DNA from: Leptolyngbya sp. SIOISBB
Lineage (GTDB): Bacteria; Cyanobacteriota; Cyanobacteriia; Phormidesmidales; Phormidesmidaceae
Direction of reading: 5' to 3'
Assembly: GCA_010671905.1 (NCBI GenBank)
Contig: JAAHII010000001.1
Coordinates: 7,092,026-7,156,025 of the forward strand
DNA: 64,000 nt
Shown here: one piece after another, positions 10,562 through 39,934 of the stretch
Layout of the letters: each line of letters starts with the position of its first letter
Numbering within the stretch: position 1 is the first letter of the stretch
Program-made: the position numbers and the translations under genes
The notes under the pieces: model-generated
The model's input: only the letters and a program-made list of their open reading frames with translations
Database searches by the model: none
Told to the model about the DNA's origin: nothing

Positions 10562-11338
10562 AAAGTCTTTTTTATATTAGTGCCAATCACTCCACTCCCC
10601 TCAGCAAAGACCCATCGAAGTTCTTTTTAGAGAAAAAGCCAGAGCAGCCAAGAGCACTCTCCTCAAACTGAGCAAATGTCTCTATCAAGAGGTCCCAATT
10701 TAAATCACTACAGAAGTCACAAAATCATTGACTTAGGCGGGAGTAAGCCTTAAGCCAAACCGCCTTTCATCCATTCAAGTCGATCCCTAGCTATTTAGGC
10801 TGCATAAAAAGCTTTAGAGGACAGCCCATGCTATCTAAAGAAACAATAAGTTTGGTTTCACTTGGTAATGAGTCATGCGCTTTCCGACACATAACCACGT
10901 GGTTATGAAGCTATACTAGTGCCATGTATAGACATTAGGATTTCACTATTGCTCTTTTAGCTATCTATCAGAACAGGCGTCTAGTTAATGAGTTTCGGTT
11001 GACTGGTCGGAGTGAAATCCTTATTCAAAGAGCTTGCTGAACGCTTGTTTGCTTCTTCTGATGACTGTATTGCTGGTTTGATCGAAGCTCATAAGCGATT
11101 TTGATCAGGTGATTGATGTCCTGCTGCTGTCTCCAACAGGGTCATTCTTGCAAAGCTACAGTTAGTTATTTCGTGTCCGGAAAATTGGCTGCCTAATGAT
11201 GATTTAGTCTGCTCATCTCCTGTTGAACTCATCCTTTCCGGCTCCCATTTATCGGCTCGCGAAACTGTTCGTGATGTGAGAAGTCACCGCATCTCATTGC
11301 ATGACGTTATGGAAGCGATCTCAGCGCTTCTTCTAAAC
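10562..11338. other. Long regulatory or decayed region before the acyl-CoA synthetase gene
   Basis: About 770 bp without a supported gene. It holds a perfect 18-bp palindrome (10890-10907) followed by TATACT at 10912-10917. From about 11011 a short frame starting at GTG reads MKSLFKELAERLFASSDDC and continues as IAGLIEAHKRF before a stop, with coding-like content afterwards in broken frames, so a decayed small gene is possible. Confidence 0.4.
10890..10907. promoter_or_regulatory. Perfect 18-bp palindrome, candidate operator of the beta-oxidation cluster
   Basis: CATAACCACGTGGTTATG is fully self-complementary. It is followed 4 nt later by TATACT (10912-10917), a good -10 element, so a protein bound here would cover the -35 region. 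Length and symmetry fit a TetR- or MarR-type regulator site. No regulator gene of this kind is in the window. Role inferred. Confidence 0.5.
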
Positions 11339-13495
11339 ATGAATGGTTCACCGTTTATTCCAGGGTCTCATCCCTTTAAGGATTGTCATCGGCGAACGCC
11401 CGCAGATTTACAGGCACTGCCCATGCCCCCAAAGATTGATCCAGGGCAGCTGTGGTTAGGTCGAACGCTATTAGAGCTGTTGGATATTGGGTGCGCCCGC
11501 GCCCCTAACCCCCAGTCGCTCAATCAGTGGCGCGACCATCGCTGGCAAGGGGGCGCGAGTCAAACTTTGCGGCAAACCGTTGAGGAAATTGCGTTGGGCC
11601 TGCGATCGCTGGGGTTGCAGCGGGGCGATCGCATTCCCTTAGTGATGCATAGCGACATCAATTTTTGTCGGGTTGACTTCGGGTGTTTGCTGGCAGGGCT
11701 GGTCGATGTCCCGATTGATCTCACCCAGACGGTTGAAAATATCCTATTCATTCTCAATCAGACGCAGGCCCAGGTCATGGTGATTTCTAACCTGGATCTA
11801 TTGCAACAGCTGACGCCTTACTTGTGGGAAGCCCCAACCTTGCGGCAGATCATTGTGGCCGATGTGCCGGAGGATTGGCGCACTGTCTGCCAAACCTTGA
11901 TGCGGGCAGCGGCTCCATCTACTGGGAAGGAGGCAGCCTATGATGTACCGACGCCTTGGGAGTGTCTCCATGTGCCCCAATTTTTGGGCCAGGCCAGTGT
12001 TGAGTTGTCCACCCCCTGCTCTGTACCGGCGTGTATTCAGCTCATGTCACTGGCCGATGTGCAGGCGCAAGGCCAGCAGCAGTGGTCAGTACAGGCCGTC
12101 GAAACCTTGCGAGCCGACATCGCCCCAACCGATCTCGCGACCATCATCTACATCGCTGGCTCTACCGAACGACCTTTGGGGGTGATGCTGACCCATGAAA
12201 ATATTGCCGCCAATGCGCTGACGGCATTTAGCAGCTATCCCCAACTGCAAGCTGGGCCAGAGGAAGTCGCGCTGCTCTTTTTGCCGTTGACCCATATTTT
12301 TGCTCGGGTTTTTCTCTATGGGCATTTGGCCTATGGGCATACCGTTTACCTGTCAGACCCCAACCATCTATTCAAACATCTGCGAACGGTGCGCCCCACG
12401 GTCATGATTACCGTGCCGCGTCTACTCGAAAAAGTGTACGAGCGGGTGCTAGATCGGGGCAGTCGGCTGCGGGGCCTGGATCGGCAAGTTTTCACGTGGG
12501 CGCTCAACTTGGCTCAGCGGTTTGACGTCGGTAGATCGCCCCAGGGCTTGTACGCGCTGCAGTTACAGCTCGCAGATGCCCTCGTCTTTGCCAAATGGCG
12601 GGTGGGGTTTGGCGATCGCCTCAAAGCCCTCATTTGCGGGGGGGCGGCCCTGCGTCCCGAACTCGTCCAGGTATTTACCGCTGCCGGGATTCCCCTATTA
12701 CAAGGCTATGGGCTGACAGAAACCAGCGGCGTTGTCTGCTACAACCGAGGGGCCGCCAACCGGGCTGGCACCGTGGGGTTACCCATCGCCGGTGTCGAGA
12801 TCGCCCTAGCCACCGATCACGAAATCCTGATTCGTTCGCCGTTTGTCATGGCGGGCTATTACCAAAACCCAGAGCATACCCAAGCAGTTTTAGAAGATGA
12901 CGGCTGGCTGCATACGGGCGATTTGGGGAAGATCGACGCCGATGGCTTTCTGACCATTACGGGGGTCAAAAAGCCCCTGTTCAAATTATCCACTGGGAAA
13001 TATGTCTCCTCCCAACTGCTAGAAGCCACCGTGATGGAATCCCCCCTAGTGGATTTGGCGATCGCGACGGGGGCCCACCAAAAGTTCTGTGGAATGTTGA
13101 TTTTCCCGAATTTGGCTGCTTTGAGCGCGATCGCTCATGCTGCCGACTTAGATACCAACACCGCCCACTGGTGGCAACATCCGGTCTTCCTTGCTCACTA
13201 TCAGGTCGCCATTGACACCGCCAATTGTCACTTACCTTACTGGTCAACCGTGCGTCAGTTTCGTCTAGTTGATCCTCAGCAGTCTCTGCGACCGACTCCT
13301 CAAAACGGGGGCTACCGACAGGATGGCACCCTCAACCGCATCTGGGTGCTCAAGCACTACACCGCTGAGATTGAGGCCCTATATCAGCAGTCCTCCGTTG
13401 CCACCCAGGTTCCCAACGCTCTCGAAAACCTCAATCTCAGCCTCACTAACCCAGCGGTCTGTCCAGTCCATGCCCAATCTCTGCTGCACCACTAG
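11339..13495 (+). CDS. Long-chain acyl-CoA synthetase-like AMP-binding protein (FadD-type)
   Basis: About 719 residues; would activate fatty acids to acyl-CoA through acyl-adenylate. Family blocks are plain: PLTHIFARVFLYGHL, GYGLTETSGVVCYN, GYYQNPEHT, WLHTGDLGKIDADGFLTITG and KKPLFKLSTGKYVSSQLLE, as in long-chain synthetases. Two catalytic regions are odd. The P-loop reads YIAGSTERPLGVMLTH instead of a TSGTTGxPKGV type, and the C-terminal Lys block reads DGTLNRIWVLKHY with no lysine at the usual place. The enzyme may be divergent or use other residues. The start is uncertain: GTG 11276, ATG 11309, 11339 and 11423 are in frame and none has a strong ribosome site, and homology begins near 11423. 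It leads the fadN-fadA-fadE genes on the same strand. Confidence 0.85.
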   Translation: MNGSPFIPGSHPFKDCHRRTPADLQALPMPPKIDPGQLWLGRTLLELLDIGCARAPNPQSLNQWRDHRWQGGASQTLRQTVEEIALGLRSLGLQRGDRIPLVMHSDINFCRVDFGCLLAGLVDVPIDLTQTVENILFILNQTQAQVMVISNLDLLQQLTPYLWEAPTLRQIIVADVPEDWRTVCQTLMRAAAPSTGKEAAYDVPTPWECLHVPQFLGQASVELSTPCSVPACIQLMSLADVQAQGQQQWSVQAVETLRADIAPTDLATIIYIAGSTERPLGVMLTHENIAANALTAFSSYPQLQAGPEEVALLFLPLTHIFARVFLYGHLAYGHTVYLSDPNHLFKHLRTVRPTVMITVPRLLEKVYERVLDRGSRLRGLDRQVFTWALNLAQRFDVGRSPQGLYALQLQLADALVFAKWRVGFGDRLKALICGGAALRPELVQVFTAAGIPLLQGYGLTETSGVVCYNRGAANRAGTVGLPIAGVEIALATDHEILIRSPFVMAGYYQNPEHTQAVLEDDGWLHTGDLGKIDADGFLTITGVKKPLFKLSTGKYVSSQLLEATVMESPLVDLAIATGAHQKFCGMLIFPNLAALSAIAHAADLDTNTAHWWQHPVFLAHYQVAIDTANCHLPYWSTVRQFRLVDPQQSLRPTPQNGGYRQDGTLNRIWVLKHYTAEIEALYQQSSVATQVPNALENLNLSLTNPAVCPVHAQSLLHH

Positions 13496-13640
13496 GTCCA
13501 TGGCGGTGAATTCAGTGAGGTCAGTTGACCAGAGGACGCGGGAGGGTCAACGGCTGGAGAGCAATTCCTGGGTTTGAAACCCCCATCACGCACCTGATCA
13601 ACAAGCGTCGATCTGACCCATCACTCCGCTCCGGGGCGGC

Positions 13641-13743
13641 TCCCCCTCTCCCCCCATCTCCCTCACCCCCCATCTCCCTTCTCCCTTCTCCCCCATCTCC
13701 CCCCATCTCCCTCCCCCCCCTCATCTCCCCCCATTCTCCCTTT
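13641..13743. repeat. G-free pyrimidine tract before fadN (G-rich on the other strand)
   Basis: 103 consecutive plus-strand bases contain no G, almost all C and T with repeated CCCCCATCTCCC-like units. The complementary strand has many runs of three or more G, so it could form G-quadruplexes, and the duplex could form triplex DNA. It ends 25 bp before the fadN start codon and forms an unstructured mRNA leader. Confidence 0.85.
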
Positions 13744-13768
13744 GCCCACCCCTTCAGGAGACCCACTC

Positions 13769-16138
13769 ATGTACACACCATTCCGCACCGCTGCTGTCCT
13801 CGGAGCTGGCATCATGGGTAGCCAAATTGCGGCTCACCTGGCCAACGCTGGTCTCCAGGTTCATCTGTTGGACATGCCTGCCGATCGCGAAAACAAAAAT
13901 GCCGTCGTTGAAGGCGCTTTTAAGAAAGCGAAGCAACTCTCACCCCCCATTTTGTATAGTGCTCGCATTGCTGAGCGCATCACCCTGGGTAACTACGACG
14001 AGCACTTTGAGCGCTTGGCTAACGTTGATTGGGTCATCGAAGCCGTGATCGAAAACCTCGCGGTCAAACAGGAACTCATGGCCCGTGTCGAAAGGGTGGT
14101 GAGTCCAGACGCGGTGATTTCTACCAATACCAGTGGCTTATCGGTTAGTGCGATCGCCGCTGGCCGGTCGGCCAGCTTTCGCCGGCGGTTTTTAGGGACA
14201 CACTTCTTTAATCCACCGCGCTATCTGCAATTGCTGGAGCTCATACCCACGGTTAATACCGATCCGACCATTTTGGCCAGCGTGCAAGCATTTGGGCGGC
14301 TGCGCTTAGGTAAAGGCATTGTGGTCGCTAAGGATACCCCCAATTTCATTGCTAATCGCATCGGCGTTTTTGTCTCCATGGCCGGGATTAAAGCCTTTAC
14401 CGAGGGAGACTACACCATTAAAGAAATTGATACCCTAACGGGGCCGCTGGTCGGACGCCCCAAGTCAGCGACTTTCCGCACGGCTGATTTAGTCGGACTC
14501 GATATCCTCTTGCACGTTGCCGAAAATCTGTATCCCGCCATTCCCCACGATGAGCAGCGAGCAATGTTCCAAGTGCCGCCGCTCTTACGCCAGCTGGTAG
14601 AAACCGGCACGTTGGGCGCGAAAAGCGGGCAGGGCTTTTATAAAAAGGTGGATGGCGAAATTCGCTCGCTCAACCCTATTTCCTTTGCCTATGAAACGCT
14701 GCCGCCGCTGAAGCTGGGCAATCTGGCCGCGATCCAAAAGTTGCCCACCTTAGCGGAACGATTACGCCAGCTATATCGCGATCGCAGTCGGGCAGGCGAC
14801 TTTTTCCGGCACTTGATGCTCGCGACCCTGGCCTATAGCGCCCACCGCATTCCTGAAATTGCTGACAGTCCGCGGGCGATCGATCAGGCCATGCGCTGGG
14901 GCTTTGGCTGGGATCTGGGTCCTTTCGAAATCTGGGACATCCTGGGCTTTGAGTCAGTATTGACCGATTTGACCGCAGCGGACTACTCCGTACCGACCTG
15001 GGTTCAGGCCATGCATAAAAGCGGCATCACCCGCTTTTATGGTGAGGGCGATCGCGTCTATGAACCCAGCACTGGAGTCTACAAAGCCTATCCCCAACCG
15101 CCGGACGAAATTCATCTGGGGTCGATCAACGCCCAGCCCCAGGCCACCCTCTGGCACAATACCGAATCGGCCCTGCTGGATCTGGGGGACGGCATTGCGC
15201 TGTTTGAATTGCGGTCTAAGGCCAATACCCTGAGTACCCAGGCGATTGCGGGCTTAGAAGCCGCAATGGATTGGCTCGCCGCCCACGATGACTATCACGG
15301 TATGGTCATCGGCAATGAGGGGCCGAATTTTTGCGTGGGCATCAACCTCGCTGAAGTGGGCAAAATGGCCCAGTTTGAAAACTTGAATCCGTTTAATCGC
15401 ACCCATCGGGGCATCGCGAAGCTGCTGGATCAATTTCAAGCCTTAGTGCAGCGTATTCACTATTTCCACAAACCGGTGGTGGCGGCCGTTCATGGCCTCG
15501 CTCTCGGCGGCGGTTGCGAACTGGCGATGGCATGCCCCCACGTGGTCGCCGATGCGGAAACTTACATCGGCTTGGTGGAACTGGGGGTGGGTTTGATTCC
15601 GGCCGGCGGGGGCCTGATGCGCATGGCCCGATGGGCCGCGAACCAAGCGCTCACGACTACTCCAGGCGATATCTTGCCCTATCTGAAACAGGTCTTTACC
15701 ACGATTGGCATGGCGAAGGTCGCCGGGAGCGCCGTGGAAGGTATTGAACTCGGTTTCTTGCCAGCCTGCACAACCCTCAATATGAACCGCGATCGCCGCT
15801 TATATGTCGCGAAGCAGGTCACGCTTTCCCTGGCCCAACAGGGCTATATCCCTCCGGCTCGCGCCCCCATTCCGGTTTTGGGGGCACCGGGTCGGGCCGT
15901 GCTAGAACACATGGCCTACGTCATGGAGGAGGGGCACTTCGCGAGCGCTTACGATCGCTCCCTAGCGAACCGCCTAGCCGACGTCCTCACTGGGGGAGAT
16001 ATGCCTAGTCTGACGCAGGTCGATGACGCTCATCTGCTGGCTTTGGAACGGGAGCATTTCTTGCCCCTCATCGATGAGCCCAAAACCAAAGACCGCATTC
16101 TGCACATGTTGAAAACCAAAAAGCCGCTGAGGAATTGA
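13769..16138 (+). CDS. fadN: 3-hydroxyacyl-CoA dehydrogenase / enoyl-CoA hydratase fusion (FadN type)
   Basis: 789 residues from ATG 13769, which has CAGGAG 8 nt upstream. It catalyses the hydration and second oxidation steps of beta-oxidation. The N-terminal Rossmann motif LGAGIMGSQIA (11-21) marks the NAD-binding dehydrogenase domain, followed by the 3HCDH C-terminal domain (GTHFFNPPRYLQLLELIP, KDTPNFIANRIG). The C-terminal third holds an enoyl-CoA hydratase/isomerase domain (VAAVHGLALGGGCELAMA, near 570-588; GLVELGVGLIPAGGG). This order, dehydrogenase first, is that of FadN of Bacillus, and opposite to proteobacterial FadB/FadJ. The thiolase gene starts 3 bp after the stop, so the two are clearly co-transcribed. 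Confidence 0.95.
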   Translation: MYTPFRTAAVLGAGIMGSQIAAHLANAGLQVHLLDMPADRENKNAVVEGAFKKAKQLSPPILYSARIAERITLGNYDEHFERLANVDWVIEAVIENLAVKQELMARVERVVSPDAVISTNTSGLSVSAIAAGRSASFRRRFLGTHFFNPPRYLQLLELIPTVNTDPTILASVQAFGRLRLGKGIVVAKDTPNFIANRIGVFVSMAGIKAFTEGDYTIKEIDTLTGPLVGRPKSATFRTADLVGLDILLHVAENLYPAIPHDEQRAMFQVPPLLRQLVETGTLGAKSGQGFYKKVDGEIRSLNPISFAYETLPPLKLGNLAAIQKLPTLAERLRQLYRDRSRAGDFFRHLMLATLAYSAHRIPEIADSPRAIDQAMRWGFGWDLGPFEIWDILGFESVLTDLTAADYSVPTWVQAMHKSGITRFYGEGDRVYEPSTGVYKAYPQPPDEIHLGSINAQPQATLWHNTESALLDLGDGIALFELRSKANTLSTQAIAGLEAAMDWLAAHDDYHGMVIGNEGPNFCVGINLAEVGKMAQFENLNPFNRTHRGIAKLLDQFQALVQRIHYFHKPVVAAVHGLALGGGCELAMACPHVVADAETYIGLVELGVGLIPAGGGLMRMARWAANQALTTTPGDILPYLKQVFTTIGMAKVAGSAVEGIELGFLPACTTLNMNRDRRLYVAKQVTLSLAQQGYIPPARAPIPVLGAPGRAVLEHMAYVMEEGHFASAYDRSLANRLADVLTGGDMPSLTQVDDAHLLALEREHFLPLIDEPKTKDRILHMLKTKKPLRN

Positions 16139-16141
16139 GCT

Positions 16142-17308
16142 ATGAACACCTCCCATCAAACTGCCTACATTGTCAGTAGCCTGCGCACAGCGGTGGGCAA
16201 AGCCCCTCGTGGCACGTTGAACACCACTCGCCCCGAAGACATGGCGGCAGCGGTGATCCGCGGCATGCTGGATCAGATTCCAGCGTTAACAGCGGCGGAT
16301 ATCGAAGATGTGGTCATGGGGTGTGCCATGCCTGAAGCTGAACAAGGCTTCAACCTGGGGCGGCTCGCCGCCATGCGGGCGGGGTTACCTGACACCGTAC
16401 CCGGCTGCACTGTGAACCGCTTATGCTCTTCCGGCTTGCAGGCGATCGCCCAAGCGACCCAAGCCGTCGCCTGGGGGCAAGCCGACGTGATCCTCGCTGG
16501 GGGCACAGAGTCCATGAGCCTAATTCCCATGGGCGGTCACCACTTCCTCCCCGACCCTAAGCTGTGGACGGAATTGCCAGAAATCTACCTGCCGATGGGC
16601 TTGACAGCGGAAAAAGTCGCCGCCCGCTACGATATTTCCCGCGCCGACCAAGATGCCTTTGCCCTGCGATCGCACCAACGTGCCCTTGCCGCGATCGCCG
16701 CTGGTCACTTCAAAGACGAAATCATTCCACTCCAGGTGACCCACACCGCAACGACCTGGTTTGATACAGACGAAGGCCCCCGCGCCGACACGAGCCTAGA
16801 GGCCCTCAGCCAGCTCAAACCGGTCTTTCGCCGCGATGGCACGGTCACTGCTGGAACTTCCTCCCAAATGTCTGACGGGGCTGCCGCCGCCCTGATTGTG
16901 AGTGAAACGCATCTACAAGAACTCGGCCTCCGACCCCTGGGTCGTTTGCTGGGGTACGCCGTGACCGGAGTCGCCCCCGAAATCATGGGCATCGGCCCCG
17001 TCACCGCCATTCCTCAAGTGCTGCAACAGGTCGGCCTGACCCTCGCCGATATTGGCCTGATTGAGCTGAACGAAGCCTTTGCTGCCCAATCCCTTGCCGT
17101 CATCCGCGAACTTGGCCTCAACGAGGAGATTGTCAACGTAAATGGTGGCGCGATCGCCCTCGGCCATCCCCTGGGGTGTACGGGGGCTAAGCTCACCGCC
17201 ACCCTGCTCCATGAGATGAAACGACGGGGGGTGCGTTATGGCCTCGTCACCATGTGCGTCGGGGGCGGCATGGGAGCTGCTGGGGTGTTTGAAAATTTGA
17301 TGCTGTGA
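16142..17308 (+). CDS. fadA: Acetyl-CoA C-acyltransferase (thiolase), FadA
   Basis: 388 residues, normal for a degradative thiolase. Catalyses thiolytic release of acetyl-CoA from 3-ketoacyl-CoA. The nucleophile is C95 in [12 protein letters not shown]. The NEAFAAQ motif, the histidine in [15 protein letters not shown] and the second cysteine in [15 protein letters not shown] are all intact. The gene starts 3 bp after fadN, as in the fadN-fadA pair of Bacillus. All active-site residues are present, so an active enzyme is expected. Confidence 0.96.
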
Positions 17309-17754
17309 ATTGTCTGAACGAGTGCAGTCAATGAGGAGAACGATTGTTATGGTACCAACTCCTATTTTGCAATAGAGGTCTGAGGTTATATCAATTCTGC
17401 AAAATAGCGCTACAGATCGAGGATCCCCCGCTGTCGCCGCCCCCTTAGAAAAGGGGCTACTCTCAGGGTTTCCCCCTTTTTCTAGCGCAGCCTTAGCGTA
17501 GCCATACCCGCAGGGTTATTGCCCGAAGGGCTTTAGGGGGATTGAGGGGGATCTTTCCATTTGGCAGATGTGTAGTCCAATTTTAGAGAATTGGTATTAG
17601 GGAAAGGTATCTTGCACCGCCGCCCGCTGATCAATGCCCCCATCCTCAGGCTCCGCATCTGCCTCCTCTCTCCCTCCTTGGGGCACCCCAGCGACCCTCC
17701 CTCGGCCTCCTCTCCCCCCTCTCCTAACGAACCCATCCACTACGGAGACTGACC
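17309..17754. other. Spacer between fadA and fadE with a hairpin element and pyrimidine-rich leader
   Basis: No gene seen. Bases 17422-17552 form an element bounded by GATCCCCC and GGGGGATC with inner CCCCTTAGAAAAGGGG-like hairpins, similar in style to widespread cyanobacterial intergenic repeats. From about 17640 to 17725 the plus strand is very pyrimidine-rich, echoing the tract before fadN. GGAG at 17744-17747 is the ribosome site of fadE. Confidence 0.6.
17422..17552. repeat. Inverted-repeat-bounded intergenic element
   Basis: Starts GATCCCCCGCTG and ends GATTGAGGGGGATC, so the termini are complementary over about 8 bp. Internal CCCCTTAGAAAAGGGG is a strong hairpin. Looks like a member of the CCCCCTAAA-type dispersed repeats common between cyanobacterial genes. 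No second full copy was seen in this window. Confidence 0.5.
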
Positions 17755-20094
17755 ATGCTTTCCCTGATCCTCCTGATTACCTTCATCCTTCTCTTTGCTG
17801 TTCTAGTGCTACCGCCGCTCCGCCGTCGCTTCATCACCCGTTGGATTGTGCAAGCGATCGTCGCCCGCAAGCGCTTGCCCACAATTTCGGACACAGAGCG
17901 AGCCGCGATCGAGGCGGGAAATGCCTGGGTCGAGCGAGAATTTTTCACTGGTAAACCCAATTTTCAGCGGCTGCTACAGGCCACTTACCCAGAACTGTCT
18001 GCCACCGAGCAAGCTTTTCTGGATGGACCTGTGGAACGCGCCTGTGAAATGGCGACCGACTGGGAAATTTATCAGCAAAAAGATCTGCCGCCAGACCTCT
18101 GGAAGTTTCTCAAGCACGAGAAGTTCTTAGGCATGATGATTCCGTCAGAATTTGGTGGCCTCGGTTTTTCCAATGTGGCTTACAGTGCCGTCATGGTGAA
18201 GCTGGCGTCACGATCTTTTACCCATGTAGCGACTGTCGGTGTGACGAATTCCTTAGGTCCCGCCAAGTTACTGTTGCGCTACGGAACGCCAGAGCAAAAG
18301 GCTCGCTATTTGCCTCGTCTGGCAATTGGTGAAGAGATTCCCTGCTTTGCCCTGACGGAACCCCAGGCCGGATCGGATGCCGCGAGTCTGACCGCCCATG
18401 GCGAAGTCTTCCGAGGAGAGGATGGCCACCTTTACCTGCGGCTCAATTGGCAAAAGCGCTACATTACCCTGGGCAGCATCGCCACGTTATTGGGGTTAGC
18501 CTTCCGGTTGCACGACCCTGAGAATCTCTTGGGTAAAGGCCAAGATGTCGGCATTACCTGCGCGTTGGTCCCGACGGATATGCCTGGAGTGGTGATTGAT
18601 CGTCGCCATGACCCCATGGGCGTGCCCTTTTACAACTCACCCACCGCAGGGCATGATGTGGTGCTGCCGCTTGACCATATTATTGGTGGCGTCGAGCAAG
18701 CGGGCCAAGGTTGGAAGATGCTCATGCAAGCCCTCGCCTCGGGTCGGGGCGTGAGCTTCCCGGCTAGTTGTACTGGCGTCGGTAAGTTAGTCGCCCGAGT
18801 GACGGGTGATTACAGCGTCATTCGGCAGCAATTTGGGCTTTCCATCGGTCGCTTTGGCGGCATTGAGGAACCCCTTGCCCGCATCGCTGGCCTCACCTAC
18901 CTAATAGATGCGGTGCGGCTATACACTGTCGGGGCAGTCGATGATGGCAAACAGCCTGCGGTGGCGTCAGCGATTACCAAATACACCACTACTGAACTCG
19001 CCCGCCAAGTTGTGCTCGACGGGATGGATATTCTCGGGGGTGCCGGTATCTGTCGCGGCCCCCGTAATTTACTCGCCAATATCTATACGGCCATGCCGAT
19101 TGCGATCACCGTGGAAGGGGCTAATATTCTGACTCGCAGTCTGATGATTTTCGGCCAAGGGGCCATTCGTTGCCATCCTTATGTCTATGGTGAAATTCAA
19201 GCTCTGCAAGCTGGCGACATTGCGGCGTTTGATCGCCTGCTCTGGCCGCATTTAGGCAACCTGGTTAGGAATAGCCTGCGTAGCATCGTTTTAACCGTGA
19301 CGCGAGGTGCCTTGATCACCGCCCCCGCCCCCGGAGCAACGGCTCGCTACTATCGCAAACTGACCTGGGCTGCGAGCCTGTTTGCCTTTCTCACTGATGT
19401 CACGCTGTTGTCCTACGGTGGCAATCTGAAGCGACAGGAAAAATTGACGGGCCGCTTCGCCGATGCCTTGTCTTGGCAATTTCTGGTGATCGCGGTTCTC
19501 CGTCGCTATGAAGCCGAGGGCCGCCAGCCGGAAGATTTACCGTTGGTTCATTGGAGTGTGCAATATGCCCTCGCCCAGCTCACCCCTGCCTTTGAGGGCA
19601 TCATTAAGAACCTGCAAGTGCCTGTTTTGGGACCCCTGATGCGGTGGTTGGGCCTGCCCCTGTTACGTCTGAATCCGATTAGTCAGTTGCCCAGTGATGA
19701 ACTGGGGCATCAAGTTGCCACACAATTGCAGACGCCCGGCTCCGATCGCGATCGCCTCACTGTTGGCATTTACCTTCCCACTGATCCCCAGCAGAGCCTC
19801 GGACGGTTAGAAGCCGCGTTCGCCCATATGCACCAAGCCCAAGCCGTGTTAGCCAAGATTAAGCAGGCTAGCCGGATCGGCACGTTGCCCCAAGCGAGAC
19901 CAGACACGCTCTTAGACCTAGCTTACGAACAGGGCATCATCACTGAAGCAGAAACCACCCTTGTGGGCGAAGCCACAGTTGCCCAAAATGATGCCATTCA
20001 AGTGGATGCCTTCACCTTTGAGGAGTATCGGCGCAGTAGTGGAGTCCCGTCGCCAGCGATCGCCCACCGCCACTCTTTAACCGAGTTGAAATAG
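17755..20094 (+). CDS. fadE: Acyl-CoA dehydrogenase, FadE type
   Basis: 779 residues. Catalyses the first oxidation of acyl-CoA using FAD. An N-terminal hydrophobic segment (about 3-25) suggests membrane attachment, as in enterobacterial FadE. Key blocks include PSEFGGLGFSNVAYS, ALTEPQAGSDAASL, the central RGVSFPASCTG and GMDILGGAGICRGPRNLL, and ITVEGANILTRSLMIFGQG (near 450), which is almost the enterobacterial FadE sequence. The C-terminal DUF1974-type extension is present. Thus it is of the long E. coli FadE type, while FadN is of Bacillus type. It is separated from fadA by 446 bp and may have its own promoter. Electron-transfer flavoprotein genes are not in the window. Confidence 0.95.
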   Translation: MLSLILLITFILLFAVLVLPPLRRRFITRWIVQAIVARKRLPTISDTERAAIEAGNAWVEREFFTGKPNFQRLLQATYPELSATEQAFLDGPVERACEMATDWEIYQQKDLPPDLWKFLKHEKFLGMMIPSEFGGLGFSNVAYSAVMVKLASRSFTHVATVGVTNSLGPAKLLLRYGTPEQKARYLPRLAIGEEIPCFALTEPQAGSDAASLTAHGEVFRGEDGHLYLRLNWQKRYITLGSIATLLGLAFRLHDPENLLGKGQDVGITCALVPTDMPGVVIDRRHDPMGVPFYNSPTAGHDVVLPLDHIIGGVEQAGQGWKMLMQALASGRGVSFPASCTGVGKLVARVTGDYSVIRQQFGLSIGRFGGIEEPLARIAGLTYLIDAVRLYTVGAVDDGKQPAVASAITKYTTTELARQVVLDGMDILGGAGICRGPRNLLANIYTAMPIAITVEGANILTRSLMIFGQGAIRCHPYVYGEIQALQAGDIAAFDRLLWPHLGNLVRNSLRSIVLTVTRGALITAPAPGATARYYRKLTWAASLFAFLTDVTLLSYGGNLKRQEKLTGRFADALSWQFLVIAVLRRYEAEGRQPEDLPLVHWSVQYALAQLTPAFEGIIKNLQVPVLGPLMRWLGLPLLRLNPISQLPSDELGHQVATQLQTPGSDRDRLTVGIYLPTDPQQSLGRLEAAFAHMHQAQAVLAKIKQASRIGTLPQARPDTLLDLAYEQGIITEAETTLVGEATVAQNDAIQVDAFTFEEYRRSSGVPSPAIAHRHSLTELK

Positions 20095-29382: not shown

Positions 29383-30237
29383 GTGAGAAATCGACCAGAT
29401 CATCAAACAGACGACGTTCCAGAACTCGTCATTGAAGCAGGCCACACAGAGGCTTTGTATTTTCAAGATTTATGGCGCTACCGCGAACTCTTCTATTTTC
29501 TGGCTTGGCGTGACATTTTGGTGCGCTACAAACAGACTGCAATTGGCATTGCTTGGGCACTCATTCGTCCCTTTTTGACAATGGTGGTGTTTACGATCGT
29601 TTTTGGTCGACTTGCTAATTTGCCAACTGAGGGCGATGCACCATATGCCATTCTCGTCTTTGCCGCGATGTTACCCTGGCAATTTTTCGCCAGTGCCTTG
29701 ACCGAGTGCAGCAACAGCTTAATCGATAACGCTAATTTGATATCAAAGGTCTATTTTCCTCGCTTAGTAATTCCGACCAGTGCGGTTATTGTCAGTTTTG
29801 TAGATTTCCTAATTTCAGGTGCCATCTTATTAGGGTTGATGGCTTGGTACAATGCTGTGCCTTCTTGGAGATTTGTTACTCTACCGTGCTTTATTGCGAT
29901 CGCCTTTGCTGCCGCCATGGGCGCGGGACTCTGGCTTGCAGCCCTCAACGTACAGTACCGGGATTTTCGCTACATCGTGCCGTTCTTGGTCCAGTTCGGC
30001 CTTTATATTTCCCCAGTAGGTTTTAGCAGTAATATTGTTCCAGAGTCGTGGCGACTCATTTATTCGATCAACCCGATGGTTTGCGTGATCGATGGTTTTC
30101 GATGGGCCATCATCGGTGGCGATACTCAACTTTATTGGCCTGGTTTTCTACTATCGTTAGCGCTGGTAGGCGTACTGCTAGTTACTGGCATTCTTTACTT
30201 TCGCCAAATGGAGCGAACTTTTGCCGACATCATCTAA
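29383..30237 (+). CDS. ABC-2 type polysaccharide export permease (Wzm-like)
   Basis: 285 residues from GTG 29383. Inner-membrane permease with about six membrane segments, of the TagG/Wzm/KpsM group. The characteristic cytoplasmic start LWRYRELFYFLAWRDILVRYKQTAIG and the segment ALIRPFLTMVVFTIVFGRLA match close cyanobacterial relatives. Together with the ATPase downstream it should export a lipid-linked polysaccharide or a glycan chain across the membrane. The frame is open further upstream (to 29221) but homology begins near PELVIEAGHTE, so the GTG is preferred. Confidence 0.9.
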   Translation: MRNRPDHQTDDVPELVIEAGHTEALYFQDLWRYRELFYFLAWRDILVRYKQTAIGIAWALIRPFLTMVVFTIVFGRLANLPTEGDAPYAILVFAAMLPWQFFASALTECSNSLIDNANLISKVYFPRLVIPTSAVIVSFVDFLISGAILLGLMAWYNAVPSWRFVTLPCFIAIAFAAAMGAGLWLAALNVQYRDFRYIVPFLVQFGLYISPVGFSSNIVPESWRLIYSINPMVCVIDGFRWAIIGGDTQLYWPGFLLSLALVGVLLVTGILYFRQMERTFADII

Positions 30238-30389
30238 ATTCTTAGGGGTTTTATGCACCAGACTCTCAATTTTAGTTAAAGAAGCCTACCATATTGCTAA
30301 AGGTAATCAACTGTAACGGCTGGTATAGCCACATGACACTTTAAAGTAGTCTGCCAGGCAAACTAAAGATAAATTTCATAACCATTGCA

Positions 30390-31658
30390 ATGTCTGACAC
30401 GGTTATACAGGTTGAGAATTTAGGTAAAAGATATGCCATCGGCCATCAAGCGGCAAGAGGTTCTCGCTACGTTGCTCTACGGGATATTATTGCTAATGGC
30501 GTGCAATCTCTAGGCGAAAAAATACGCTGTCCTCAAAAAGCTTTCGAACAAACTAGTCAGGAAGAGTTTTGGGCGCTGAAAAATATCTCTTTTGAAGTAA
30601 GACAAGGGGAAGTAATTGGCATTATTGGCCGCAATGGTGCTGGCAAATCGACACTTTTAAAGTTACTGAGCCGCATTACAGAACCCACAACTGGAAAAAT
30701 TCGATTACGGGGTAGAGTTGCGAGTTTACTAGAGGTTGGCACAGGATTTCATCCCGAACTCACTGGGAGAGAAAATATTTTTCTGAATGGCTCAATTCTG
30801 GGCATGAGTAAAGTTGAAATCTGCCGAAAGTTCGAGGAAATTGTAGACTTTGCTGAAATCGAACGCTTTCTCGATACTCCTGTTAAACGCTATTCCTCCG
30901 GGATGTACGTCCGGCTTGCCTTCGCTGTTGCTGCTCATCTAGAACCCGAAATTCTTGTGGTTGATGAAGTTCTGGCCGTGGGTGATGCCGCTTTCCAAAA
31001 AAAATGTCTCGGCAAAATGGAAGATGTGGCCCATACTGGCCGGACAATCCTATTTGTTAGTCATAATATGGGAGCGGTTTCGAGCCTCTGTGAGCGAGGC
31101 ATTTTTTTACAAAGTGGACAGATTTTCAAGAATGGTGTGGTAGAAGATGTAATCGCCGAATACATGGAAGCTCAAGAGACTTCTGCTAGTACTGAATCTC
31201 TTGTAAACCACCCTAATCGCACAGCAGGAGTTCAACAATTACTAACAAAGTTTTCAGTCGGCTCAAAGAATGGCATCGTCTATTATGGGAAATCTCTGAG
31301 ACTGAAAATTGGATATGAGTTTGATTCTTCAATCAACAATCCTCAGTTTTGTATTGCTATCTATACGTTTACTGGAATTCGTGTTCTTACTTTAATCAGT
31401 GACTATCAACCCAATAATATTCCTAAATTAGTTAGTGGCTGTGGAGAAGTGACATGTGAAATTCCCCGTATTGTGTTAATGCCGGGTAACTATACGGTGA
31501 ATTTACAGTTATGGCAACCTGGGCAAAAACTTGATGAGATCCAACACGTTTCCACAATAAGGGTAGAGTGGCTAGAACGAATAGAAGGTCAATTTAACTG
31601 GAATCTGAGTTTAGGTGTAATTTATGCAGATGCAAATTGGTGCATAAATGGAGTTTGA
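30390..31658 (+). CDS. ABC transporter ATP-binding protein with C-terminal glycan-binding domain (Wzt-like)
   Basis: 422 residues. Walker A GRNGAGKST (80-88), signature YSSGMYVRLAFA, Walker B EILVVDEVLAVGD and switch FVSHNMGAV are intact. After about residue 265 comes a beta-rich domain resembling the Wzt C-terminal domain, which in related exporters recognises the capped end of the polysaccharide before export. Paired with the permease 152 bp upstream. Methyltransferases downstream may supply the cap. From here the DNA becomes AT-rich and lacks HIP1 sites. Confidence 0.93.
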   Translation: MSDTVIQVENLGKRYAIGHQAARGSRYVALRDIIANGVQSLGEKIRCPQKAFEQTSQEEFWALKNISFEVRQGEVIGIIGRNGAGKSTLLKLLSRITEPTTGKIRLRGRVASLLEVGTGFHPELTGRENIFLNGSILGMSKVEICRKFEEIVDFAEIERFLDTPVKRYSSGMYVRLAFAVAAHLEPEILVVDEVLAVGDAAFQKKCLGKMEDVAHTGRTILFVSHNMGAVSSLCERGIFLQSGQIFKNGVVEDVIAEYMEAQETSASTESLVNHPNRTAGVQQLLTKFSVGSKNGIVYYGKSLRLKIGYEFDSSINNPQFCIAIYTFTGIRVLTLISDYQPNNIPKLVSGCGEVTCEIPRIVLMPGNYTVNLQLWQPGQKLDEIQHVSTIRVEWLERIEGQFNWNLSLGVIYADANWCINGV

Positions 31659-31700
31659 AATCTGAATAGATACGCTTTATTATCCTACGTCTGTCAAGAA

Positions 31701-32546
31701 ATGTTTATCAAATCAGTTAAGTCCGTGCTTAAAACAGTTATATTTTCTTTTCTGGATTTACCGGGCTTTATTTTAGAAAGGCGAGTAAATTATCATCAAA
31801 CTCCCTTTATTTTTCATGATTGGAAAGGATATAAATACTGGCAATATCCAGGAGATAACATAAAGTTGAATTGTCGCCGTCGTGCAGTTTTAGACTCAAA
31901 AGGAGTTGTTAATTATATTAAAAAAGTAGTAGAGCCGGGGTGGGAGTGTATTGATATTGGTGCTGCAATTGGCGCTGTTTCAGTTCCACTCTGGTCTCAA
32001 GTTGGACAGAAAGGAATCGTGTTCTCAGTAGAGGCTGATCCTCATAAAATAGAGAAATTATCATCTAACTTGAAACTAAATGGATTCAAAACCGAATTTA
32101 TATTGAATATAGCCATTTCTGACGAATCTAGCATTAGAGGTTTGCGTTGTTACCCAGAAAATTCTGGTTGGGATACCTTTGGTGACCCAAGTTTTGCAAA
32201 AGATTATGAATCTTTCATGATTGATATTGAGACCATAAACGTGTCTGATTTGGCAAGGAAATATACCCTCAATACTATCGATCTAGTCAAAATAGATGTT
32301 GAAGGAGCAGAAGTATTAGTATTAAATGGAATGAAGCCTCTATTAGATTCAGGAAGAGTATCACAAGTGATTTTTGAAGTTAATTACTTGATGCTAGAGG
32401 GTATGGGCGCTACTGTCACAGATCTTTTGTCTTTTTGGGAAGATATGGATTATTCACTTTGGGAGATCACAAAAAATGGCACTTTAGCCTCTCTAGATAT
32501 AGAAAAGCTGCATCACAATGTCTGTGACTGTGTAGCAGTACTTTGA
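31701..32546 (+). CDS. FkbM family methyltransferase
   Basis: 281 residues. The SAM-binding region reads CIDIGAAIGAVSVPLWSQVG (about 78-97) followed by VFSVEADPHKIEKL, and the family motif LVKIDVEGAEVLVLNGM lies near 196-212. FkbM enzymes O-methylate sugars or polyketides. In this cluster a role in methylating the exported glycan, possibly its terminal residue, is likely but inferred. It begins 42 bp after the ATPase. Confidence 0.9.
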   Translation: MFIKSVKSVLKTVIFSFLDLPGFILERRVNYHQTPFIFHDWKGYKYWQYPGDNIKLNCRRRAVLDSKGVVNYIKKVVEPGWECIDIGAAIGAVSVPLWSQVGQKGIVFSVEADPHKIEKLSSNLKLNGFKTEFILNIAISDESSIRGLRCYPENSGWDTFGDPSFAKDYESFMIDIETINVSDLARKYTLNTIDLVKIDVEGAEVLVLNGMKPLLDSGRVSQVIFEVNYLMLEGMGATVTDLLSFWEDMDYSLWEITKNGTLASLDIEKLHHNVCDCVAVL

Positions 32547-32574
32547 ACCTCCTAGGCAATAATATGTTAATCAT

Positions 32575-33189
32575 ATGAACGGAAAATACGCAATTTTAGT
32601 CAAACCCTTATTGTTAGTGGTGTCAAAATTTAGGGTTTTGAAGCTCTTGTCAAGTAAACAACCCATTAGGCTTGACCTAGGTTGTGGAAGTATAAAGCGG
32701 GAGGGGTTTATTGGCATAGATCTATCTTCTAGGTCTGATCTACCATGGAATATAGAATGGGGCATTCCCTTTCCGGATAATAGTATTGCAGAAATTAGAT
32801 CTGACCACTTCTTAGAACATTTAGACCTGGTACAGGTGATTGCGACACTAAAAGAGTGTAAGAGGGTTTTAATTCCAGGTGGAATCCTAGACTTTTCAGT
32901 TCCACATCTTGATCCTTATATAGAAGCTTATTGCCAGAAGGATTTTGAATGGCTTGAAGAGAAAATTCCTGATATTCCGATTGGACAGGAAAAAATTTAT
33001 AGTACCTGTCTAGATAGATTAGGATGGCTACTAATACGATCTGGGGAACATAAATCAGTTTTCGATAAAGAGTCGGTTATTCAAAAGGTTCAATTAGCTG
33101 GCTTTACTGACGTAAAAATACGAGAATTTGCTACTAGTAGAGATCAAAATTTCAGATTTTCGTCAATATATGTGGTTGCTAGGAAATGA
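32575..33189 (+). CDS. SAM-dependent methyltransferase
   Basis: 204 residues. Motif I is LDLGCGSIKREGFIGIDLS (about 33-51), and FLEHLDLVQVIATLKECKRVLIPGG is a typical post-motif region of predicted sugar or lipid methyltransferases. Starts 28 bp after the FkbM gene and overlaps the next gene by 4 bp (ATGA), so it is translationally coupled. Substrate unknown; glycan modification is likely by context. Confidence 0.88.
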   Translation: MNGKYAILVKPLLLVVSKFRVLKLLSSKQPIRLDLGCGSIKREGFIGIDLSSRSDLPWNIEWGIPFPDNSIAEIRSDHFLEHLDLVQVIATLKECKRVLIPGGILDFSVPHLDPYIEAYCQKDFEWLEEKIPDIPIGQEKIYSTCLDRLGWLLIRSGEHKSVFDKESVIQKVQLAGFTDVKIREFATSRDQNFRFSSIYVVARK

Positions 33190-34403
33190 TATTAGTTGGT
33201 GATTATGTCCTTGGGAATTTAGATATTAAAACTCTGTTCAAGAAAAGTCCAGAGGAATTTATCCTAATGAACTTGGAAGGTCCTCTTTTACAAGAAAAAT
33301 TTATTTATTCTCCTATTCAGAAAGCTGGCGCCCACTTGTATTCTACCAAGGTTCCTGTAGAACTGCAGCCAATAATCTTAGCGCTCGCCAATAACCATTT
33401 AATGGATTTCGGGATAGAGGGATTAAAATCAACTTATTCTTATGCAAAAAAGCACAACATACTCTTTGTGGGTGCTGGTGAGAATTTGAGACGGGCCAGA
33501 CAGCCTATAATCGTATATGAAAAAAATGCTACAATAGCTATCCTTTCCTGTTGCGAAGCTCAATTTGGTACTGCGGTAAATCAATACATTGGTGTGGCGG
33601 AATTTGGGCCATGGCTTTACGCCGAGATCATGCGTCTTAGAAATGATGTTGATGCGGTTATTGTTTCGTCACATGCAGCGGTCGAAGATGCACCTTGGCC
33701 ATCTCCTCGGATTCAGGAGTTTTATCGCTCATTAATTGATGTTGGAGCCAAGGTCGTGCATGGGCATCATGCGCATGTGCCGCAAGGTGTTGAAGAATAT
33801 AAAAATGGTCTGATTTTGTATGGTTTGGGTAATTTTATTGTTGATCCTGAAAAATGGCAGGAATTACCAAATTCTCTATGGTCTATTGGAATTCGTGTCG
33901 ATTTCGCCCAAAAGCCAATTGCTTGGGAGAACTTGACTTTTGAGATCGAAAAAGATGATGAAAATAATATTTTTTTACGAGAAAGTCATGAGAGTGAAAG
34001 GATTCACCATCAGAAGTATATTGATACTTACAACTCGGCTCTTTCAACTCGGGATTTACTTGATGCATTATGGCAAGAAGTTGCAGTCAGATCATTTTAT
34101 GGTTACAAGGCTAAGTATATGAACTTTCCTACTGACCGAATAGCATCTATAGGTTTTCGAGAAAGATTGAAATATGCTCGTGATGGATTTTTGAAGTTGA
34201 TTGCTGCCACTGTTGGTTCTGATAGGCTAGCTAAAATACCACATAAAGATTATTTGTTATGGTATGTTATGTTTGCATGTGAAAGTCATAGAGATTCTAT
34301 TGCTACAGCTTTAGGTATTTTATCTGGCGAGCTACCTGATTTAAGAAATAAAAAATCCAAGGCTTTGGTAGACGAAATAATGCCTTGGACTGTCAAAATA
34401 TGA
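33186..34403 (+). CDS. CapA-like (PGA_cap) metallophosphatase-fold protein
   Basis: 405 residues. CapA-family blocks are visible: MNLEGPLL, LALANNHLMDFGIEGL, VSSHAAVEDAPW, VVHGHHAHVPQGVEEYKNGLILYGLGNFI. The family has a calcineurin-like fold and takes part in capsule (poly-gamma-glutamate) synthesis, though many members act in other capsules. It lacks a signal peptide here and begins directly at the catalytic domain. Coupled by ATGA overlaps to the genes on both sides. Substrate unknown. Confidence 0.87.
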   Translation: MILVGDYVLGNLDIKTLFKKSPEEFILMNLEGPLLQEKFIYSPIQKAGAHLYSTKVPVELQPIILALANNHLMDFGIEGLKSTYSYAKKHNILFVGAGENLRRARQPIIVYEKNATIAILSCCEAQFGTAVNQYIGVAEFGPWLYAEIMRLRNDVDAVIVSSHAAVEDAPWPSPRIQEFYRSLIDVGAKVVHGHHAHVPQGVEEYKNGLILYGLGNFIVDPEKWQELPNSLWSIGIRVDFAQKPIAWENLTFEIEKDDENNIFLRESHESERIHHQKYIDTYNSALSTRDLLDALWQEVAVRSFYGYKAKYMNFPTDRIASIGFRERLKYARDGFLKLIAATVGSDRLAKIPHKDYLLWYVMFACESHRDSIATALGILSGELPDLRNKKSKALVDEIMPWTVKI

Positions 34404-35797
34404 AAGATAAAGGTTCAGAAAATATCTTTGAGACAGATTGGCTGGCATCTAAACCAGTTTTCTACAATACCCAAACTAATAAAGTTAGTCATAATATTAA
34501 CGATGTTGTTGATCTTAGAAACTTAGATTTTCATCCCGAAGGTTTGTATAATTATTTCGAATTTGGCTATTCGGTTTTCGGACAAACTCCAATAAAAAAC
34601 GTTAAGTTTTTACGATATTCATCAAGCCTAGAAAAAGGTGGCAACGGGAGTATTAGGATTGAGTATCATCAAGATCCAGTAGACCAATGGGCTGATAAGT
34701 GTTCTGACAAAGATGAACTTATTGGAAAACTTGAAAAAACGATTTTAGACTGGGAAAGAGCTGTTGATGGAGAAATAGTAATCCCTACAAGTGGCGGTTA
34801 TGATTCTAGGCTTCTCAATCTTCTGGTAAGCGACAAAAACCGCATCCGCTCATTCACCTACGGGGTCTCAGAGAATCAGCTAAACTCTATGGAAATAGTT
34901 AAAGCTGAAAAAATATCCGAAATCCTTGGAACTAGATGGGAGCCAATCTTACTGGGTCAGTACCATCGTTACTTTCGCGAATGGGGTGCCATTTTTGGTT
35001 CCTCTACACACGCCCATGGTATGTATCATATAGAATTTTATAAGAAAGTTCTAAAAAGAGTTTATGGAAACAATCCGTTTTTGAGCGGCATCTTTGGTGA
35101 TGTCTGGGCCGGTAGTACTGATTATATTTCGCTGAATATGCCAAGAGACTTGAGATATTTAGGATATAGTCACGGTCTATGCGCCGATGCCTCACAGCTT
35201 ATGTTGAAAACCGATCACGATATCCGTGATTCTTTCTGGGAAGATCATCGAGAAAAACTAAACGATTACTTTTATCAAGTTATTTTCCTGATAAGACTGA
35301 AGATAATCCTAATTTCGTATCTTATACGAGTTCCACAAGATATGTTTGGGTTTAAGGCATGGTCTCCATTTTTAGAGCAAGACATTGCACTATCAATGTT
35401 GACGCTGCCTTCTGAATGGAGAAAACAACGGAAATGGCAAAGAAATCTCTTTCGAGATAACGGTCTAGATCTTGAATCTATGAGTCTTAGATTCAACAAG
35501 CAAAATAATTTGAATTATCAGGCTATGCGTCAAGTCCCATTAAAGCCTTTAGATATGGATTTGCTAAGTGAAGTCGTTAGACCGAGATATATTGAGTGGA
35601 TTAATTCGAAGATAAAAAAGCAATCTCCTTTGAAATATAAGATCTCTAATTTTCGAAGATCTTCGAAAATTAATGCTGTACTTAATCGCCTAAGAATTAA
35701 AGAAGAACGTCTTAATGCTTATTATGCTTATCTAACACTTAAGCCCATTGAAGAACTACTGATAAAACGCAACTTGAGCTCAAAACTTGATTGTTGA
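34400..35797 (+). CDS. Asparagine-synthase-like ATP pyrophosphatase, no glutaminase domain
   Basis: 465 residues. The PP-loop is clear as IPTSGGYDSRLLNLL (near 129-143), followed by IRSFTYGVS and a helical region with GIFGDVWAGS, as in the synthetase half of asparagine synthase B. The N-terminal glutaminase with its catalytic Cys is missing; instead about 120 residues of unclear fold precede. Such stand-alone proteins may form amide bonds using ammonia or an amine. In a glycan cluster, amidation of a uronic acid is a reasonable guess. The ATG overlaps the stop of the CapA-like gene (ATGA at 34400). An upstream TTG at 34385 is less likely. Confidence 0.82.
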   Translation: MKDKGSENIFETDWLASKPVFYNTQTNKVSHNINDVVDLRNLDFHPEGLYNYFEFGYSVFGQTPIKNVKFLRYSSSLEKGGNGSIRIEYHQDPVDQWADKCSDKDELIGKLEKTILDWERAVDGEIVIPTSGGYDSRLLNLLVSDKNRIRSFTYGVSENQLNSMEIVKAEKISEILGTRWEPILLGQYHRYFREWGAIFGSSTHAHGMYHIEFYKKVLKRVYGNNPFLSGIFGDVWAGSTDYISLNMPRDLRYLGYSHGLCADASQLMLKTDHDIRDSFWEDHREKLNDYFYQVIFLIRLKIILISYLIRVPQDMFGFKAWSPFLEQDIALSMLTLPSEWRKQRKWQRNLFRDNGLDLESMSLRFNKQNNLNYQAMRQVPLKPLDMDLLSEVVRPRYIEWINSKIKKQSPLKYKISNFRRSSKINAVLNRLRIKEERLNAYYAYLTLKPIEELLIKRNLSSKLDC

Positions 35798-35815
35798 CCA
35801 AATGCCTTTAAGAGT

Positions 35816-36724
35816 ATGAAGTGCAGTACATCAATAATACTGATAATATTTCGACGACCACTGCTAACTCAGGAAGTCTTTTCCAGAATTCAGGCGGTAA
35901 AACCTAGCAAGCTTTTTGTGGTGGCAGATGGGTCAGAGAATGAAGAAGAGAGAATTTTCTGTGAACAGGCAAGGGCTGTGACCGAGCAAGTTGATTGGGA
36001 TTGCGAAGTTTACCGCAACTATGCTGATACAAATTTGGGTTGCCGTCAACGAGTTTCCTCGGGAGTTACTTGGGCTTTTGAGCATGTTGAAGAAGCGATA
36101 GTTCTAGAAGATGACTGTGTTCCTGACCCTTCTTTTTTTTACTATTGTGAAAATCTGCTCAGCTATTATCGCGAGGATAAGAGAGTCATGGTTATCAGTG
36201 GCAATAATTTTCAGGATGGATGCCGACGCGGTAATGACAGCTATTATTTCTCAAAATACAATCATTGTTGGGGTTGGGCTACTTGGCGTAGAGCTTGGAA
36301 ACATTGGGAATTCAATCCAGATAGATGGATACAGTTTCGCGACTTAGGGCTCATGAAGACTGTATGTATAGATTTTGCTGAAAGGATTTATTGGACTGAT
36401 ATCTTTAATGAATTCTTTTTGGAAAATAAATTTGACAGCTGGGCATATGCCTGGACATTTGCTTGCTGGTCACATGGCGGTCTGACTGCACTGCCAAACT
36501 GCAATCTAATTTCAAATATTGGTTTCGACGAGGATGCTACCCACACACGAAAAAAAAGTCGGTTCGCTAATATGATCACGGAAAGTATTGATGAAATCAG
36601 ACATCCAGATTTTGTCTGCCAAGATGTTGAAGCGGATTTCTACACTTTTCAGAATCACTTTGAAGGAAATCTCTGGAGACGCTTTCGTCGTCATCTTAGA
36701 AGGATTAAGAGACGTCTACTATGA
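35816..36724 (+). CDS. Glycosyltransferase, GT-A fold
   Basis: 302 residues. Starts with a hydrophobic strand IILIIFRRPLLTQEVFSRI, then VVADGSENEEER and VLEDDCVPDPSFFYY (near 97-111), the acidic motif for metal and nucleotide sugar, followed by CWGWATWRRAWKHWE. This layout matches putative surface-polysaccharide glycosyltransferases annotated as HlpA-like or GT2-related. It overlaps the next gene by 4 bp. Donor and linkage unknown. Confidence 0.82.
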   Translation: MKCSTSIILIIFRRPLLTQEVFSRIQAVKPSKLFVVADGSENEEERIFCEQARAVTEQVDWDCEVYRNYADTNLGCRQRVSSGVTWAFEHVEEAIVLEDDCVPDPSFFYYCENLLSYYREDKRVMVISGNNFQDGCRRGNDSYYFSKYNHCWGWATWRRAWKHWEFNPDRWIQFRDLGLMKTVCIDFAERIYWTDIFNEFFLENKFDSWAYAWTFACWSHGGLTALPNCNLISNIGFDEDATHTRKKSRFANMITESIDEIRHPDFVCQDVEADFYTFQNHFEGNLWRRFRRHLRRIKRRLL

Positions 36725-37659
36725 AACCTACTTGCCCTCTTAGTTTTAGCAAGAACGTCCAATTTTTAGAATCGATTGATACTTCTAAAATAGAAAGACT
36801 CTATCAGAAAAAGTTGAATCTATCAGTTATTGAAGAGTTTAAGTCAGTGAAGAAAATCAACTTTTATCGTTCTGTTGATTCAGACTTAAAGTTTTTCAGT
36901 CCTATGACGATTGGGTCACAATCTTTTTATGAAACTCTTCAAGGCCTAGAGTGGTATTACCTTGATGAAAAGTATGAATATGAGTATGTCCGAAACTGGA
37001 TTAAACCTAGTTGTCTGGTTCTTGAGGTTGGATGTGGCAAAGGATCCTTGGCAAGATTCTTGAATTTGAAATCTTATGTTGGGCTCGAATATAGTGAAAA
37101 TGCTAAAAGAATTGCTGAAAAAGACAACGTTAAAGTTCTAAATAAAACAATTCAAGAGCATTCGATGAATCGAACTTGCTCTTATGATGTAGTTTGCGCT
37201 TTTCAGGTTTTAGAACATGTTGACAATGTCCATAACTTCGTTCGTGAAAGCGTCAGCTGCCTTAAGAAAAATGGTCTTTTGATTTATTCAGTACCTAGTG
37301 CGGATTCGTTTGTTGCGCTGGCGAAGAATAATCCTCTAAATATGCCGCCTCATCATTTGACCTGGTGGTCGGATAAGAGTCTGCAGTACTTAGAAAATAT
37401 TTTTCCACTCGAATTGCTTGAACTTCATCATGAGCCTTTAGCCGAAATACACTTCCGCTGGTATATCTCGGTGTTAGTTCTGGAAGCCTTAAAGCAAAAA
37501 CTAAATACCCAGTGCTCTTTAATTGACTTCACTTTCAAAGGGCAGTTGCTTTCAAAAATAGCAGAGGTAGTTTCGGCTCTGATATCTGATGGATTGGCGA
37601 ACACAAAGATGAGACCCATAGGCCATTCGGTTATTGCAGTTTATCGGAAGACCTCATAA
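36721..37659 (+). CDS. SAM-dependent methyltransferase
   Basis: 312 residues. A non-conserved N-terminal 95 residues are followed by a class I methyltransferase core: VLEVGCGKGSLARFL (near 101-115), YVGLEYSENAKRIAEKDN and FQVLEHVDNVHNFVRES. The family (Methyltransf_23 type) methylates small molecules, lipids or sugars. The third methyltransferase of this cluster, coupled to the glycosyltransferase by an ATGA overlap. Substrate unknown. Confidence 0.87.
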   Translation: MKPTCPLSFSKNVQFLESIDTSKIERLYQKKLNLSVIEEFKSVKKINFYRSVDSDLKFFSPMTIGSQSFYETLQGLEWYYLDEKYEYEYVRNWIKPSCLVLEVGCGKGSLARFLNLKSYVGLEYSENAKRIAEKDNVKVLNKTIQEHSMNRTCSYDVVCAFQVLEHVDNVHNFVRESVSCLKKNGLLIYSVPSADSFVALAKNNPLNMPPHHLTWWSDKSLQYLENIFPLELLELHHEPLAEIHFRWYISVLVLEALKQKLNTQCSLIDFTFKGQLLSKIAEVVSALISDGLANTKMRPIGHSVIAVYRKTS

Positions 37660-39917: not shown

Positions 39918-39934
39918 AGCTTTATATTGGAATC

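Follow-up and report, generated by a model that had tools for sequence, protein, structure and literature searches.

A G-free repeat tract before a fadN-like gene of Leptolyngbya sp. SIOISBB is probably a permissive spacer from a dispersed class of intergenic repeats

The G-free tract that precedes the fadN-like gene in the 64,000-nt stretch of Leptolyngbya sp. SIOISBB analysed here (hereafter, the window) most likely belongs to a class of intergenic repeats that are made of degenerate short words and dispersed over the genome, as judged from matches in the same genome and in its relatives. It is probably no switch but a permissive spacer that purifying selection keeps clean. The tract is a further case of the intergenic repeats already described in cyanobacteria, and nothing was found in support of a dedicated quadruplex switch. 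Seen on its own, a striking G-free tract beside one gene suggests a special quadruplex element; a search of the genome and its relatives shows it to be one of many fast-changing repeats.

The maximal G-free run measures 104 nt (Table 1). The preliminary description of this DNA was right about the absence of G but gave 103 nt, one base short at the start (13640); base counts in 13641-13743 are A 7, C 68, G 0 and T 28. Calling the run a pyrimidine tract was incorrect, as it holds 7 A and its longest pyrimidine run is 22 nt, and the A interruptions also weaken the triplex idea put forward with that name. Its location between fadD and fadN is confirmed: the run begins 144 nt after the fadD-like stop codon and ends 25 nt upstream of the FadN ATG (13769). 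Elsewhere in the window, all G-free or C-free runs stay below 40 nt, and in 200 first-order Markov simulations of 64 kb each the longest such run averaged 38 nt with a maximum of 60 nt, against 104 nt observed. Repeats are present as well. A 30-nt unit recurs 49 nt further on (93%), and a period of 16 nt is seen in degenerate form, with 6.2 copies, 72% matches and 14% indels; a 7-nt array of CCCTTCT (3.4 copies) also lies in the tract. Words of the tract resemble CCCCCATCTCCC. There are 12 runs of at least three C on the plus strand, and the minus strand accordingly carries a quadruplex motif (four runs of at least three G with short loops).

Table 1. Positions in the window of the tract and of the genes and signals around it
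Feature	Position	Strand	Remark
Acyl-CoA ligase (fadD-like), upstream, co-directional	11276..13495	+	AMP-dependent type
Intergenic leader, 273 nt	13496..13768	+	
G-free, C-rich degenerate repeat tract, words like CCCCCATCTCCC	13640..13743	+	mRNA-sense strand of fadN
C-free G-rich template strand, predicted quadruplex motif, G4Hunter 2.16	13640..13743	-	
AGGAG, presumed ribosome-binding site of fadN, 8 nt before ATG	13756..13760	+	read from sequence
FadN-like 3-hydroxyacyl-CoA dehydrogenase/enoyl-CoA hydratase, downstream gene	13769..16138	+	

The product of the downstream gene is a 3-hydroxyacyl-CoA dehydrogenase/crotonase of the FadN/FadB type. The names fadD and fadN are given by similarity, because the best NCBIfam matches stay under their curated cut-offs (221.7 versus 950 bits for the fadD-like gene, 640.5 versus 999 for Staph_FadB). 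The closest named FadN relative, 77% identical, comes from a Leptolyngbyaceae cyanobacterium. FadN matches above 300 bits were found in 22 of 59 related genomes, and none of the matches in the five same-genus genomes is orthologue-like. A scan limited to the sigma-70 consensus gave no sigma-70-like promoter in 13380-13900, an intrinsic terminator was likewise not found there, and no Rfam family matched at its gathering score in the window. The fadD/fadN/fadA/fadE-like beta-oxidation gene set occupies window positions 11276-20094 and is patchy among relatives.

The genome itself (8.34 Mb in two contigs, 96.7% complete) contains 16 further matches to the tract DNA at E <= 0.001. A two-octamer pattern allowing at most 3 mismatches hits 110 overlapping places (60 forward, 50 reverse), whereas its reversed control hits 2 (one on each strand), and the octamer CCCCATCT occurs elsewhere in the genome. 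In total, 38 G-free runs of at least 59 nt were identified, the tract included. Runs of this length are present in 54 of the 59 related genomes, where some of those in AT-rich genomes may be simple AT-rich sequence; the densest set (162 runs) is seen in G036, a 1.7-Mb genome of the same class. Many of the listed runs are made of tandem short words such as CCCCATCT, TTCCCTA, AACTCAA and AACCAAC.

Several repeat systems of this kind are known. STRR heptamers of heterocystous cyanobacteria are tandem short words, intergenic and widespread in cyanobacteria; the tract shares the intergenic location of that general description and, in degenerate form, may share the tandem short words, but its unit is not a clean heptamer, the best period being 16 at 72% matches. 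Closer are the dispersed G-rich heptamers GGGNATC and GGGGA(C/T)T of Xanthomonas and Nostoc sp. PCC 7120, for which PMC4692102 describes intergenic simple repeats of 39-179 nt in Nostoc. According to the same paper, most upstream repeats are no more than 50 bp away from the ORF and have the non-coding strand as their G-rich one, the G-rich heptamers are on the coding strand close downstream of stop codons, and between aligned ORFs of Nostoc 34% are on the opposite strand versus 18% on the same strand; quadruplexes formed in vitro, and no regulatory role was identified. The repeats studied here are similarly dispersed, mainly intergenic and G-rich on the non-coding strand close upstream of an ORF, as seen in the 38 runs of the genome and in its tracts between co-directional genes, 25 of 29 of which are G-free on the sense strand. 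They differ from the system as described there (PMC4692102) in their degenerate words (the octamer CCCCATCT plus A-rich mixtures such as AACTCAA), in belonging to another cyanobacterial family and in that part of the class lacks a quadruplex motif. The Nostoc definition given there asks for at least two GGGGATT or GGGGACT units, and by reading, the minus strand holds GGGAGAT- and GGGGGGAGAT-like units instead of such clean pairs. The TAACTGA direct repeats of Beggiatoaceae and cyanobacteria (PMC4679880) are also intergenic and immediately precede start codons; one orientation is preferred in Beggiatoaceae, and the paths in cyanobacteria are strain-specific. In contrast to the tract, which is followed by a clear AGGAG, they consist of a fixed G-containing heptamer that often overlaps the ribosome-binding site.

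The orientation of the class was assessed in five genomes: all 38 runs of the own genome and all 19 of G040, 18 of 27 in G058, 21 of 25 in G056, and 69 distinct tracts of 93 in G016, the latter a non-random sample (the first 30 listed plus 20 hand-chosen regions, some chosen for close pairs). Tracts were masked before genes were called with our own codon-usage script in place of a standard gene finder. Leaving out tracts far from a gene (18 of 165), convergent (17) and divergent (15), 88 of the 115 remaining tracts, all of them between co-directional genes, lack G on the mRNA-sense strand (binomial p 1e-8, which assumes independent tracts). The counts are 25 of 29 in the own genome and 42 of 56 in G016; the bias is absent from G040 (7:6), and neither G058 (7:1) nor G056 (7:2) is significant alone. 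Counted by genome neighbourhood, 11 of 13 in the own genome are sense-strand G-free (p 0.022). Without masking, the intergenic tracts divide 16 versus 2 in the own genome and only 24 versus 15 in G016. At a minimum run length of 59 nt, the ratio near starts is 13:1 in the own genome and 22:6 in G016, and stop codons show no overall bias (5:5 and 14:16); at a minimum of 40 nt, the ratios are 17:3 and 28:7 near starts and 5:10 and 18:22 near stop codons. Such counts by nearest boundary are confounded, since most start and stop codons cannot occur in sequence that lacks G. We therefore do not rely on a symmetric rule of C-free stretches at stops and G-free stretches at starts, as the lack of G itself shifts the ends of open reading frames, an effect that masking before gene calling avoids. 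Leaders without a tract in the own genome lean the same way, with a mean of 19.8 C versus 15.8 G per 72 nt and C exceeding G in 21 versus 9 of 32 (p 0.016), so that the tracts may mark the far end of a C-over-G preference common to leaders.

G016 also contains six close opposite-strand pairs, all arranged, by our reading, as C-free (G-rich) then G-free (C-rich) on the plus strand (for example C5:82113-82237 and C13:13776-13979). This paired symmetry is explained neither by the direction of translation or transcription alone nor by the reading we favour.

Comparison of fadN leaders among relatives separates the words from the composition. A G-free run of at least 40 nt lies within 200 nt upstream of fadN in 10 of 25 leaders (the window included) and is missing from 15; L031, L036 and L041 were left out as partial or repeated copies, and L028 offers only 70 nt of upstream sequence. 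Leader identity between the window and other genera is 0.49-0.63, which is background level. One related genus is represented by five genomes (L011-L015). Their fadN genes are 0.87-0.95 identical over the first 900 nt in the 10 pairs, whereas their 130-nt leaders are 0.48-0.77 identical per alignment column, with 7 of 10 pairs at 0.48-0.56, and all five have a G-free run (55, 79, 63, 70 and 82 nt, respectively; the longest run of L014 stops 113 nt short of the ATG). With the coding sequence conserved, most leader pairs at background and a G-free run in each genome, the words change while the absence of G recurs, and the words are replaced fast between species. The preliminary description named free variation of tract sequence and length among strains, with no effect on expression, as what would count against its interpretation; between these related species, sequence and length do vary freely.

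In L011, L012 and L015, a C-free G-rich stretch occupies the last part of fadD or follows the stop codon of that gene; by eye, it is partly complementary to the G-free tract after it. Both these stretches and the close pairs of G016 could form hairpins, unlike the leader in the window. In L028 and L041 (G027 and a Leptolyngbya MAG), three reading frames share the FadN sequence (residues 1-127, 128-191 and 191-788), which is therefore frameshifted or poorly assembled.

In the fadN leader, accessibility of the start region is predicted at 0.57 for the native leader, 0.60 with the tract removed, 0.44 with the tract reversed and 0.52 (sd 0.10) with random sequence. The native tract thus brings no predicted gain over the tract-free leader; 41 of 100 random sequences match or exceed the native value, and the reversed tract falls inside the random spread (21 of 100 as low). 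An RNA hairpin in the leader was rejected, with a fold z-score of +0.79 for 13496-13798 and 78 of 100 shuffles folding at least as well. The minus-strand DNA fold scores z +1.18 under parameters without treatment of quadruplexes. What orientation certainly alters is the set of translation signals: the reversed tract would contain 15 Shine-Dalgarno-like motifs, 7 start codons and 6 suitably spaced pairs of the two, and the native tract contains no such motif and no start codon.

These results favour a spacer grown by slippage and held in its harmless orientation, since the reversed tract adds motifs and starts and the native one has none. More specifically, the tract most likely grew by slipped-strand replication, and its words turn over quickly between species, as the fadN leaders show. 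The orientation without G on the mRNA-sense strand, for which the bias is statistical, would be the tolerated one, and we infer that selection acts on it. A leader RNA so oriented would offer few options for pairing and neither a Shine-Dalgarno-like motif nor a start codon, leaving translation from the real AGGAG-ATG undisturbed; the opposite orientation would introduce the spurious signals counted above. The absence of bias in G040, the weaker unmasked contrast in G016, the even counts near stop codons and the missing gain in predicted accessibility weigh against this reading.

A stronger version is possible, although we regard it as doubtful: a composition rule and not a sequence rule for cyanobacterial intergenic repeats, by which the sense strand before starts is kept G-free while words are replaced fast. 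Equally tentatively, the absence of G (i.e., no anti-Shine-Dalgarno pairing and no secondary structure) would under this rule be the selected trait, and simple repeats a cheap source of it. What is mildly new is that G-absence recurs rather than the word. We did not meet such a rule in a limited search of the literature on these repeats, which is weak evidence of newness. If it holds widely, a sense-strand G-free rule would give a simple, testable reason for a strand preference that was reported without a mechanism in 2015.

Among other explanations, the preliminary description had noted that the G-rich template strand could fold into quadruplexes. Such folding might set the level of fadN expression, either by slowing RNA polymerase or by holding the DNA open. 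The motif is indeed predicted (G4Hunter 2.16), and similar GGGNATC repeats formed quadruplexes in vitro, but the authors of that work could identify no role in gene regulation (PMC4692102). Moreover, the motif is not a shared property. It is found in 6 of the 10 tract-bearing fadN leaders and missing from 4, and in 3 of 5 leaders within the genus of L011-L015, whereas a regulatory quadruplex should keep its motif in orthologous leaders. Among tracts of at least 59 nt, it occurs in 26 of 38 in the own genome, 39 of 69 in G016, 1 of 19 in G040, 3 of 18 in G058 and 10 of 21 in G056, leaving 12, 30, 18, 15 and 11 tracts without it. Because a quadruplex needs C runs on the sense strand and part of the class lacks them, this reading is weakened and we consider it quite unlikely. 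An active role of the RNA in raising fadN translation, either as an unstructured leader or by binding a ribosomal or RNA-binding protein, is also unlikely. The sense-strand bias and the recurrence of G-free runs at fadN despite sequence turnover are in its favour, and S1, Csp or Csr have been proposed for another intergenic heptamer in Beggiatoaceae (PMC4679880). Against this, removing the tract does not lower predicted accessibility, the fold z-score is +0.79, 15 of 25 fadN leaders lack a G-free run of at least 40 nt and the sequence is not conserved. The unstructured leader suggested earlier therefore survives only in a negative form, as a leader that does not disturb.

Two further explanations concern the repeat and its composition. 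As a degenerate tandem repeat before a start codon whose length differs between related species, the tract might be a phase-variation element in which length changes alter fadN expression between cells; its units are imperfect (72% matches) and its position is outside the coding frame, ahead of the ribosome-binding site, making this very improbable. Rho-utilisation sites are C-rich, G-poor RNA, and the composition would suit such a site ending transcription between fadD and fadN. However, no Rho was found in this 96.7% complete genome (best match 38.8 bits versus a cut-off of 509), using a search whose control passed the cut-off in 8 of 14 genomes. The missing Rho largely refutes this explanation, to which we assign almost no probability.

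Several other features of the window were noted. The leader of the fadE-like gene (about 17650-17740) is C-rich and G-poor just before the ribosome-binding site, with pyrimidine runs at 17662-17679 and 17706-17725. A palindrome-like element with the ends GATCCCCC and GGGGGATC lies between fadA and fadE (about 17420-17555), and the sequence upstream of fadN in L027 resembles it. A perfect heptamer array of TTCCGAC (5.9 copies) is located at 58469-58509. At 2182-2371 and 2628-2807 are arrays of period 72-73 with GTTTCAATCCCCTTTCGGGGAATT units, which we take to be CRISPR-like. Finally, GC content drops to 0.37-0.42 in 30001-42000, compared with about 0.5-0.58 around it, and this stretch is possibly an acquired island.
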